Below, one piece after another: positions 6,403-64,000 of a stretch of DNA of 64,000 nt (its first letter is position 1; every line of letters starts with the position of its first letter). The translations under genes were made by a program, and so were the position numbers. Source of the DNA: Halovivax cerinus (GTDB lineage Archaea; Halobacteriota; Halobacteria; Halobacteriales; Natrialbaceae); NCBI RefSeq assembly GCF_024498195.1, contig NZ_CP101824.1, positions 1,922,001 through 1,986,000 on the forward strand, in the 5' to 3' direction. Below the pieces are notes generated by a model. The model did no database searches. It saw only the letters and a list, made by a program, of their open reading frames with translations, and had not been told where the DNA came from.

Positions 6403-6904
6403 CGAACACTCACGGAGTAGAAATCGAAGAAGACGCCCGAGGCGGGATTTGAACCACGCGAAGACGGTCACCCTCGCTCCGCTCGGGTGCTGCGTCTTCT
6501 CTACTTCAAATCCCGGTTCTGCCGCGCTTCGATTTCGGGTATTCGCGACACGGCTACGCCGGTCGCTCACGGAGTTGAAATCGAAGAAGACGCCCGAGGC
6601 GGGATTTGAACCGAAGCCAGACGTGCTCACTCACTACGCTCGCTGCGCGCGACTGGTAGGGCTCAAATCCCTTTGTAGGGTCGTTTCCGCTCACGAATGT
6701 CGAGCACACGCTACGCGGTGCTCGTCGAGATTGTTCGCGGAAGAAGACGCCCGAGGCGGGATTTGAACCGAAGCCAGACGTGCTCACTCACTACGCTCGC
6801 TGCGCGCGACTGGCAGGGCTCAAATCCCGCTTCTGCCGCGCTTCGATTTCGGGTATTCGCGACACGGCTACGCCGGTCGCTCACGGAGTTGAAATCGAAG
6901 AAGA
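6403..6904 (-). repeat. 157-bp tandem array carrying copies of the tRNA-Asp 3' end
   Basis: Downstream of tRNA-Asp, in its direction of transcription, a 30-bp block recurs identically at 6426-6455, 6583-6612 and 6740-6769; the fourth copy, 6897-6926, is the true tRNA end. Each step is exactly 157 bp. The block is the last 22 bases of the tRNA (3' half of the T arm plus acceptor strand and discriminator) and 8 bases beyond. At offset 80 in every unit there is an inverted T-arm-like TCAAATCCC. The middle unit (6583-6739) and the tRNA-proximal unit (6740-6896) share their first ~85 bp; the distal unit (6426-6582) and the proximal unit share their last ~70 bp, so the proximal unit is mosaic. Left of 6426 the end of a further degraded unit is seen. 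No real ORF fits. Confidence 0.9.
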
Positions 6905-6977
6905 CGCCCGAGGCGGGATTTGAACCCGCGTCACGACCGTGACAGGGTCGTATGATGGGCCACTACACCACCCGGGC
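6905..6977 (-). tRNA. tRNA-Asp (GTC)
   Basis: A complete 73-nt cloverleaf. The acceptor strand GCCCGGG pairs with CTCGGGC (one G-U), and G is the discriminator base. The anticodon stem CGACC/GGTCG encloses the loop CTGTCAC with anticodon GTC. The T arm is GCGGG-TTCAAAT-CCCGC. CCA is not encoded. The 3' end is the source of the repeat blocks downstream. Confidence 0.97.
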
Positions 6978-61354: not shown

Positions 61355-62590
61355 TCAGGTCGCCGTTACGAGGTAGTCAGTGGTGTCGGCGCCATCGGTA
61401 TCGGAGTCGTCGGTTTCCGGCGTCGGCTCACACACTAGATCGTATCCGAACGCGCCGAGCAGCGACAGGCTCGCCTCGACGTGGTCGGTGACGGCCGGGA
61501 TCCGGACGCGTCCGCCGGCGAGTGCGAGCGGGACGAGCAGCTGGTCGGCGAGGTGTCGATCTACCGGGGTCGCCCCCGAAACGAGACGAATCGCGGCGGC
61601 TGCCGCCTCCTCGCCGACTCGCTCCGCCGGCTTCCCCCGCTCGCCGAGGCCGTCGGTTCCCGCGATTCCGGTCTCGAAGTCGAGCCGACAGCCGATGGCC
61701 GACCCGGGCGAGTCGCTTTGCGCGGTCGTCACCACGCGCTCGGTGACGAGATCGTCGTCCCGCCCAGTATCGACCGCTCCCTCCAGCCGATCCATCGCCG
61801 CCTGTAACTGGCGCTCGGCGACGTATCGATCGGCGAGCGAGGCGGATTCGGTCGAGTAGAGGCGCACCCCGCGGAGTGGTCCGCGTTCGCCGAGTCGGAT
61901 CGGGTCCAGACGCGAGGGCGCGAGGTGCAGCGTCACCTCCCCGCCGCCCGCGGGATAGAAGCCGCGCCGGTCGACCGAGAGGGCAGCCTGCAGTCCGAAT
62001 CGCCGCAGTAGTGGTAGCTTGACGCGGCGGTAGTAGTCGAGCGTCGGCGACCACGTCACGTCCGTCCCGCCGGTGGCGGTGAGGGTGAGCGGGCTGGCGA
62101 GCCGCGTCGCGAGCGGGAGGACGGCGTCGAACAGGAGAGTGACGCTACCGGCGGTCCCGATGTCGACTGCGTACGTGCCACCCGGAATGTCGTCGGGTGG
62201 CGTTTCGGACTCAGTCTCGCCGAAATCGCCGGCTTCCCACTCGTCCCCGTCGTCCTCTCGTCCGGGATCGTCGGCGGTTTCGGCAGGGACGTCGACGGTT
62301 TCGGCAGGGACGTCGACGGTCCGTCTGGGATCGAACGTTACCGTCTCGCTTCCGATGTCGAGGGTCGTTCCGTCCGCTCCGTAGCCAGCCGAGCCGTCCG
62401 CTCCGGTGACGTCCGCGTCGCAGATTGCTGCCATCGTCTCGACGACGGCGAGATGTTGTGGTCGCAGACCGGGCGTCGATCGGTCGCCACGGACGTTTTC
62501 GATCCGAACGGCGCATCCCTGTATTCCGGCGAGTGACAGCGCCGATCGCAGGAACTGCCCGCCTGCGTCGGTCCCGTCGAGTTCGAGCAT
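61355..62590 (-). CDS. rtcA: RNA 3'-terminal phosphate cyclase
   Basis: A 411-residue RtcA-type cyclase, which converts RNA 3'-phosphate to 2',3'-cyclic phosphate. The N-terminal LDGTDAGGQFLRSALSLA and central FYPAGGGEVTLHL are family motifs; the adenylated histidine is expected in the C-terminal DRHLADQL. Residues ~90-140 are an acidic insert absent from bacterial enzymes, partly made by a 21-bp tandem duplication. It is downstream of mutL on the same strand, 67 bp apart. Confidence 0.9.
   Translation of the reverse strand: MLELDGTDAGGQFLRSALSLAGIQGCAVRIENVRGDRSTPGLRPQHLAVVETMAAICDADVTGADGSAGYGADGTTLDIGSETVTFDPRRTVDVPAETVDVPAETADDPGREDDGDEWEAGDFGETESETPPDDIPGGTYAVDIGTAGSVTLLFDAVLPLATRLASPLTLTATGGTDVTWSPTLDYYRRVKLPLLRRFGLQAALSVDRRGFYPAGGGEVTLHLAPSRLDPIRLGERGPLRGVRLYSTESASLADRYVAERQLQAAMDRLEGAVDTGRDDDLVTERVVTTAQSDSPGSAIGCRLDFETGIAGTDGLGERGKPAERVGEEAAAAAIRLVSGATPVDRHLADQLLVPLALAGGRVRIPAVTDHVEASLSLLGAFGYDLVCEPTPETDDSDTDGADTTDYLVTAT
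62276..62317 (-). repeat. 21-bp tandem duplication within rtcA
   Basis: Two identical 21-bp units (62276-62296 and 62297-62317) encode VPAETVD-type repeats inside the acidic insert. The frame is kept. Confidence 0.85.
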
Positions 62591-62657: not shown

Positions 62658-64000
62658 CTACCCGCCGTGGCCCGGGTAATCTCGCTCGAAGCGCTCCTCG
62701 ATCTCCGTCTCGTCTACGTGGACGATCACGGGACGGCCGTGCGGGCAGGCGTAGGGATTCCGGCAGTCGTCTAAGGCGTCGAGCAATTCGCGCACCGACC
62801 CTTCGTGAAGCGACGTGTTTCCGGTGATCGAGGGATAACACGCGAGGTCGCCGAGGAACTCGTCGGCCATCGTATCGACGGTTTCGGCACCGGTTGCGCC
62901 GTCGCCGGTCACGATCGCGGCGAGCACGTCTCTGAGCTGGGCGGGGTCGAGCGTCTGGTCGAAGACGGCCGGGACCGCCGTCACGGCGACGGTACGCTTG
63001 TCGACGCGGTCGGCCCGGAAGCCGAGTTGCGTGAGGGCCTCGGCCACGTCCGCGAACGCGGCCGATTCGGCCGCCGTCAACTCGAGTTCGACGGGATCGG
63101 CGAGCGCCTGCGCGGCCGGATTCTCGGCGACGGCCCGCTGCAGTCGCTCGTAGTTCACCCGCTCGTCGGCCGCGTGCTGATCGATCAGCGCCAGCCCGTC
63201 GGGCGTCTCACAGACGAGATAGGTGTCGTGGAGTTGTCCGATGACGCGCAGCGGCGGGAGCGTCTCGTACTCGCTCTCGATCTCGGCGACGTCGCCGTCT
63301 AACGTTCGCTGGTCGCTCGTAACGGCGAACTTCCGAGACGGCTCGGCGAGTGATCGTGAGTCGCCCTCGGAACCGCCCGTCGGCGTCGAGGTGTCGGTGC
63401 CGTCTGTCGGTGCTGTAGAACCGGAACCGTCCGTCGGTGCCGTAGAACTGGAATCGCCTGTCGGCGTCGGGGAACCGGAATCGCCCGTCGGCCCCGGGGA
63501 ACTGGAATCGATCGACGATCCGGCGTCGGGTGAGTTGTCGACGTCCACTGCAGTGTCGGCCGGAGAGTCGGGTCGACTGCCCTGGGTTCCGCGTGCCGAT
63601 TCCGACCGTCGGCCGTCCGCAGTCACGGTTCCGTCCGTCCCCGTACTCTTCGCTACCACGTCGGTCCCGTCTCCGCGGTCTCGACTCGCTGCGTCTGCGT
63701 CGTGCACTGAGGCCGTCTCGCTCTCTGAGACGGTCTCGCCGCGTCCTGCCTCGTCCTCGGGCACTACGACTCCATCACTGGAGCGCGTCGGATCCGTGTC
63801 CGTACGGTGGGACGCCGATTCGGGCTCTACGGTCGCTTCGTCGGGTTTCGACCGCCCACGCGGTGCGCCCGATCGGAGGAGGCCGTGGTCGAGCAGCGCG
63901 GATTCGACGGCCGAATCGACCTGTCGACGGACGGCGTCGGCGTCGTCGAAGCGGACCTCGCGCTTGCGCGGGTGGACGTTGACGTCGACAGCCTCGCCCG
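62658..64000 (-). CDS. mutL: DNA mismatch repair protein MutL, partial
   Basis: The gene runs off the right edge; only the C-terminal ~447 residues are seen. The edge-proximal VDVNVHPRKREVRF is the end of the conserved ATPase domain. A long Ser/Thr/Asp-rich linker follows, with five 9-residue repeats. The C-terminal dimerisation domain has the latent endonuclease motif DQHAADERVNYE and CPHGRPVIVHV, so this MutL is of the nicking type found in organisms without MutH. The frame is continuous from 64000 to the stop at 62658. Confidence 0.93.
   Translation of the reverse strand, partial: GEAVDVNVHPRKREVRFDDADAVRRQVDSAVESALLDHGLLRSGAPRGRSKPDEATVEPESASHRTDTDPTRSSDGVVVPEDEAGRGETVSESETASVHDADAASRDRGDGTDVVAKSTGTDGTVTADGRRSESARGTQGSRPDSPADTAVDVDNSPDAGSSIDSSSPGPTGDSGSPTPTGDSSSTAPTDGSGSTAPTDGTDTSTPTGGSEGDSRSLAEPSRKFAVTSDQRTLDGDVAEIESEYETLPPLRVIGQLHDTYLVCETPDGLALIDQHAADERVNYERLQRAVAENPAAQALADPVELELTAAESAAFADVAEALTQLGFRADRVDKRTVAVTAVPAVFDQTLDPAQLRDVLAAIVTGDGATGAETVDTMADEFLGDLACYPSITGNTSLHEGSVRELLDALDDCRNPYACPHGRPVIVHVDETEIEERFERDYPGHGG
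63373..63507 (-). repeat. Five 27-bp tandem repeats in the mutL linker
   Basis: Units at 63373, 63400, 63427, 63454 and 63481 are each 27 bp and keep the frame, encoding SSSPGPTGD, SGSPTPTGD, SSSTAPTDG, SGSTAPTDG and TDTSTPTGG. The inner units are most alike. Such repeats tend to change copy number. Confidence 0.85.

Follow-up and report, generated by a model that had tools for sequence, protein, structure and literature searches.

Hairpin repeats built from tRNA 3' ends are anchored behind tRNA genes throughout the Halobacteriales

How does a tRNA gene come to be followed by an exact tandem array of its own 3' end? In the 64,000-nucleotide stretch of the Halovivax cerinus chromosome that was analysed here (the window), three units of exactly 157 bp each (6409-6904) follow the gene for tRNA-Asp(gtc). 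The sequence-only reading of this locus had described a 30-bp block at constant spacing, and this was confirmed: the block (GAAGAAGACGCCCGAGGCGGGATTTGAACC) is present at 6426, 6583 and 6740 and once more at 6897, where it extends into the tRNA itself, with a step of exactly 157 bp. TRF reports a single array there (6409-6926, period 157, 3.3 copies, score 593), well ahead of any other tandem repeat of the window. The inverted T-arm-like sequence that had been noticed at offset 80 is indeed found in every unit, as TCAAATCCC at an offset of about 80. Moreover, the proposed exchange between units is supported: the tRNA-proximal unit is a mosaic with 99% identity to the middle unit (6740-6828) and 99% identity to the distal unit (6820-6926). 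The positions of all parts are given in Table 1. The exact period is local to tRNA-Asp, and the spacings behind other tRNAs are mostly 99-183 bp. Elsewhere in the window, at 63400-63510 and 62264-62320, there are short tandem repeats with periods of 27/54 bp and 21 bp, which are multiples of three and possibly coding.

Table 1. Parts of the tRNA-Asp array (positions in the window) and integrated elements at other tRNA genes of the same genome
Feature	Position	Strand	Evidence or remark
tRNA-Asp(gtc), intact anchor gene	6905..6977	-	ARAGORN; Rfam RF00005, 59.3 bits
Unit 1 (tRNA-proximal), trailer hairpin A	6829..6904	-	hairpin fold
Unit 1, S' (inverted T-arm copy)	6817..6828	-	
Unit 1, hairpin core, class CCAGTCGC...CGTCTGG	6770..6816	-	87.7 bits to model R1
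Unit 1, S (last 22 nt of tRNA-Asp)	6748..6769	-	exact copy
Unit 2 (middle), trailer hairpin, sequence differs from A	6672..6747	-	occurs behind tRNA-Asp in congeneric genomes too
Unit 2, S'	6660..6671	-	
Unit 2, hairpin core, same class as unit 1	6613..6659	-	near-identical to unit 1 core; 84.6 bits
Unit 2, S (tRNA 3' end)	6591..6612	-	exact copy
Unit 3 (distal), trailer hairpin A	6515..6590	-	near-identical to unit 1 trailer
Unit 3, S'	6503..6514	-	
Unit 3, hairpin core, other class GAAGACGC...CGTCTTC	6456..6502	-	68.2 bits
Unit 3, S (tRNA 3' end)	6434..6455	-	exact copy
Array end, a further trailer begins	6409..6433	-	first 25 nt of hairpin A
Integrated element, ~11 kb, tRNA-Thr(cgt)	C1 2522.9-2534.4 kb, own genome (L242)		clear left and right attachment copies
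Apparent integrated element, ~18 kb, tRNA-Tyr	C1 2067.3-2085.7 kb, own genome (L243)		
Apparent integrated element, ~51 kb, tRNA-Phe	C1 1782.9-1834.2 kb, own genome		

The repeats behind tRNA-Asp are one case of a genome-wide pattern and are not special to this tRNA. A BLAST search with one unit against its own genome yielded 19 matches, and all those outside the tRNA-Asp array were located behind other tRNA genes, 12 in number. Using a covariance model built from 20 aligned hairpins of the H. cerinus genome, we obtained 39 matches in this genome at E < 0.01 (the E-values are rough, and tRNA genes were called with ARAGORN and Rfam). Among the 41 tRNA genes, 23 have matches on the same strand at most 650 nt downstream, and these account for 36 of the 39, as compared to an expectation of about 0.1 (binomial p ~1e-85); the other three were found 11, 18 and 51 kb behind tRNA-Thr, tRNA-Tyr and tRNA-Phe, respectively. 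In four congeneric genomes, 87 of 164 tRNAs are followed by at least one copy of their own 3' end, as compared to 5.8% for the tails of other isotypes. A scan of GTDB with a DNA pattern detected at least 120 stretches, and the records among the matches listed are haloarchaeal (Haloarcula, Halorubrum, Haloferax, Natrinema and others). Among the matches listed, 109 of 126 are positioned at most 1.2 kb downstream of a tRNA, and inspection of the remaining 17 revealed that most are cut by the end of the locus or lie at separated tRNA 3' ends. The strict linkage to tRNA genes is supported both in the own genome and elsewhere; dispersed copies without such a link, which had been named beforehand as evidence against it, were looked for, and the matches did not show this pattern.

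The family is widespread. The model finds matches in 91 of 100 relatives and in 50 of 54 genera, and in a sample of 295 genomes of the phylum the family is present in 51 of the 53 genomes of the same order (Halobacteriales) and in none outside the order. Since the pattern recurs in more than 90 genomes, chance or an assembly artefact can be ruled out. The family has persisted across the order with local turnover. Some complete genomes have few or no matches, suggesting that the family is dispensable, with the limitation that the model spans only some classes of the core and that a genome without matches may still have units.

The units share a common plan. Along the tRNA strand, a trailer hairpin is followed by S', i. 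e. the inverted T-arm, by the core, by S, which corresponds to G53-73 of the tRNA, with the discriminator base as its last position, and then by the next trailer. The core has a median length of 49 nt and folds into a hairpin; its classes have a common frame (CCAGTCGC..CGTCTGG, GAAGACGC..CGTCTTC, and CCGAGGTTCTGC..GCAGGTTCTCGG). The outer parts are tailored to the individual tRNA: S differs from its own tRNA by 0.13 mismatches in 12 positions but from other tRNAs by 1.70, and in the acceptor strand the values are 0.52 and 3.14 mismatches in 8 positions. S' tracks its own tRNA as well (1.77 mismatches as compared to 2.83 for others). As S' pairs with S, this part of the unit corresponds to one long hairpin when the tRNA strand is single-stranded. 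The idea that the inverted T-arm is a second recombination site had to be abandoned: its behaviour is that of a strand paired within a hairpin, and an exchange between S' and S should turn the core around, whereas the core is always found in one orientation and its tip motif was seen only in the sense orientation.

Several observations indicate that the structure is specific to the tRNA strand, and they suggest that it matters. First, the two stems covary: in 129 sequences from other haloarchaea, both sides of a pair are changed in 185 cells, as compared to 56 in shuffled controls and at most 29 with a slid partner, in an alignment that was fitted by the model and leans towards the structure; the inner stem covaries in the starting alignment as well. 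Second, the tip of the hairpin carries a tandem G-A/GNA-loop motif in 39 of 64 cores if the tRNA strand is read, and in 0 of 64 on the opposite strand. Finally, G-U pairs exceed A-C pairs on the tRNA strand to a modest extent (58 versus 28 in the outer stem, 6 versus 5 in the inner stem), and the strand assignment therefore rests on the tip motif. The covarying stems and the tip motif speak for a function as RNA. The trailer hairpins might be co-transcribed with the tRNA and might help to terminate, process or stabilize the transcript at its 3' side, or give rise to small RNAs that carry the tRNA tail; as S' can pair with the T-arm of the tRNA or with the copy S, it could behave like an attenuator. 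One unit is predicted to fold strongly (z -4.3), and in the predicted fold of the tRNA with two units S' competes for the T-arm of the tRNA itself. Because the hairpin is strand-specific and covaries, a functional trailer RNA is the main rival to the explanation that we prefer, even if we regard it as rather unlikely.

The comparison of related species, for which orthologous tRNAs of congeneric genomes were paired by anticodon, bears on both possibilities. Any two congeneric species differ in occupancy at about one third of the tRNAs, and individual tRNAs have between 0 and 5 units; the variation in copy number that the sequence-only reading had proposed to look for is thus found between species. 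Some tRNAs, e. g. Ile, Glu-ttc and Cys, are occupied in all four congeneric genomes, as would be expected for a functional RNA. On the other hand, such a function is difficult to reconcile with the lack of units at about half of the tRNAs and in a few complete genomes, with the fast turnover of copy number, and with the decay of the last copies. At Ala-cgc, Leu-caa and Arg-tcg, a unit is present in one species while the site is empty in another. The sequence behind the last S of the former is in register, to 0-2 bp at the point where the alignment begins, with the sequence that directly follows the tRNA of the latter, and in the filled genome the native trailer sits after the last copy of S. 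Asn-gtt and Arg-tct agree with this pattern of empty and filled sites, with aligned stretches that are short or possibly hairpin sequence. The tRNA-Asp sites of the genomes G001 and G002 look empty; however, they contain a degenerate or indel-bearing unit, and there is no clean empty site at tRNA-Asp. Relatives that lack an array but retain the flank had been regarded as an argument against mobility. They do occur, at other tRNAs, and they fit precise gain or loss and do not refute mobility.

Within arrays, the copies closest to the tRNA match it better than the last copy does (0.69 versus 1.83 mismatches, p 1.5e-4, counted with the stricter cut-off, the lenient version being noisy). Moreover, near-identical cores are found behind different tRNAs: the Cys core of the genome G004 is 96% identical to the Glu-ttc cores of both species, whereas its identity to the Cys core of the H. 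cerinus genome is only 76%. Two congeneric species have exchanged cores between tRNA-Lys(ttt) and tRNA-Lys(ctt) (L013 and L016 versus L210 and L212, 91-95% identity crosswise), and this suggests recombination between tRNA genes that share their 3' half.

The three distant matches in H. cerinus can apparently be traced to larger elements (see Table 1). At tRNA-Thr, the 3' end of the tRNA recurs directly ahead of the unit, and a congeneric genome has the same trailer directly behind the tRNA: a large integrated element has parted this tRNA from its unit. The units of tRNA-Tyr and tRNA-Phe were apparently displaced by integrated elements likewise; these cases are similar in outline and less fully checked. 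The presence of such elements between tRNA and unit might point to a passive origin of the units, as remnants of integration at tRNA 3' ends, combined with template switching at palindromes and amplified by recombination, being neither mobile nor functional. Recombination is promoted by direct repeats of 22 bp, and template switching could maintain the complementarity of S'. However, the core classes are conserved across the order, they have a single orientation, and their inner stem covaries; in addition, a unit is missing from the inner side of attR in the tRNA-Thr element. Given a core that is conserved and kept in one orientation, we consider passive debris improbable. The S copies could also be host decoys, i. 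e. substitute attachment sites that keep proviruses off the tRNA, as they contain the segment from the T-loop to the 3' end that is used by tRNA-targeting integrases (PMC8371274). This is very hard to believe: the tRNA-Thr element has integrated at the tRNA itself rather than at an S copy, integration restores the tRNA anyway so that little would be gained, and the hairpin core would be left unexplained.

Which agents might carry or move the units? Two core patterns gave no match among the 2.9 million viral contigs of IMG/VR, and there was no match in a phage collection, which may contain few haloviruses; a virus-borne unit was set aside on these grounds. One copy is located on a plasmid. In the relatives G029, G002, G001 and G004 (L329-L332, respectively), the tRNA-Asp array is immediately followed by a gene of the PDDEXK_5 family (PF11645, group I intron endonuclease-like). 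A PD-(D/E)XK endonuclease as the driver was ruled out, as the PF11645 gene is absent from the genome of the window and from other unit-rich genomes. In two cases the hairpin interrupts a tRNA at the junction of T-stem and G53, namely in the tRNA-Asp of locus L167 and in a tRNA-Cys of a Haloarcula plasmid; at L167, where it is found close to the beginning of the reversed locus, the hairpin within the tRNA is either an intron-like insertion or a deletion product. The Haloarcula halophila plasmid NZ_CP119561.1 carries at least 17 tRNA genes at ~239.2-241.7 kb (L244/L245), one of them the tRNA-Cys with the inserted hairpin, and this tRNA array adjoins genes for a TROVE-domain (Ro60-like) protein and a type B DNA polymerase.

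We favour a repeat whose point of entry is the 3' end of tRNAs: this best explains why the 3' end is duplicated while the tRNA stays intact, why empty sites are precise, and why the family persists across the order and yet turns over locally. We give an even chance to the idea that the units are a non-autonomous, non-coding repeat that is specific for tRNA 3' ends and for the Halobacteriales, inserts directly behind tRNAs and then recombines into arrays. Insertion would duplicate the 3' end of the tRNA, so that the tRNA survives and its native trailer is displaced to the distal end. Later units would be added next to the tRNA and undergo recombination among themselves. The repeat might spread as a non-autonomous (mobile or homing-like) unit, with the recombination machinery presumably provided in trans, and S' might become adapted to each new tRNA in one of two ways: templated correction of imperfect palindromes at the replication fork would achieve this without selection, and hairpin selection would do so too. 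It is tempting to go further and to regard the units as gene-less mobile hairpins of archaea that home to tRNAs, insert behind them, rebuild their ends and adapt their own outer stem while persisting across the order; we put this forward tentatively, as a possibility that we would not yet bet on.

Some arguments can be raised against this explanation. The empty sites could equally result from exact loss by recombination between S copies, and the polarity of the arrays could be caused by gene conversion by the tRNA. The covariation and the strand-specific tips suggest that the structure matters, and a purely selfish reading would call for this only if the hairpin were the substrate of movement. 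We found no enzyme for the units and neither an excised circle nor another direct sign of movement. The proposal of a mobile non-coding unit or of serial integration made in the initial reading was upheld in part: the tRNA target is left intact and relatives have precise empty sites, whereas no integrase could be linked to the units and viral matches are lacking.

The hairpin family has no Rfam family: Rfam 15 recognizes only the tRNA between 5000 and 9000 of the window (gathering threshold) and no family at the units of six loci up to E 0.5. We found no earlier description of tRNA-anchored hairpins in the open-access literature; subscription journals were outside the scope of this search, which is therefore limited evidence for novelty. 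The units occur behind about half of the tRNA genes of four related genomes and in almost every genome sampled from the order. If they are mobile, they would be among the smallest tRNA-targeting elements, and they would need an enzyme that recognizes the T-arm. If they are functional, they represent an unrecognized level at which tRNA genes are expressed in model haloarchaea. In both cases, the units matter when attachment sites at tRNAs, the limits of proviruses or tRNA fragments are interpreted in haloarchaeal genomes.

Several known systems share individual features with the units. Integrative elements with tyrosine recombinases that target tRNA genes use a site in the T-arm and 3' end, duplicate the 3' end, leave the tRNA whole, and have precise empty sites (PMC8371274). 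The units resemble them in the duplicated 3' end, the whole tRNA and the empty sites. In contrast to these elements, they do not encode an integrase, as 99-183 bp leave no room for a gene; moreover, the same core is found behind tRNAs with different ends, and the inverted T-arm forms a hairpin. The bacterial REP/REPIN sequences occur with RAYT transposases (PMC3116915); like these, the units are small palindromic non-coding repeats that are present in many copies and presumably moved in trans. However, the units are confined to tRNA 3' ends rather than dispersed in intergenic regions (36 of 39 matches in H. cerinus, the other three lying behind separated 3' ends), and their outer stem is the tRNA's own sequence. 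The haloarchaeal MITEs, SMRs and PATEs, described in Haloquadratum, have terminal repeats or palindromes and are related to transposons, with no tie to tRNAs (PMC3119063). The units are short non-coding haloarchaeal elements with palindromes as well, but their ends are tRNA sequence, unlike those of MITEs, SMRs and PATEs as described. Archaeal tRNA introns are paralleled by the hairpin inside a tRNA in two cases (L167 and the plasmid tRNA-Cys), whereas the units normally follow a complete tRNA and bring a second 3' end, and no bulge-helix-bulge motif was recognized by eye in the unit fold. Finally, tRNA-gene-targeting retroelements of Dictyostelium and yeast use the neighbourhood of tRNA genes as a safe haven for insertion. 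These eukaryotic elements are kilobase-sized, code for genes and do not duplicate the tRNA 3' end, whereas the units are small, gene-less and archaeal.
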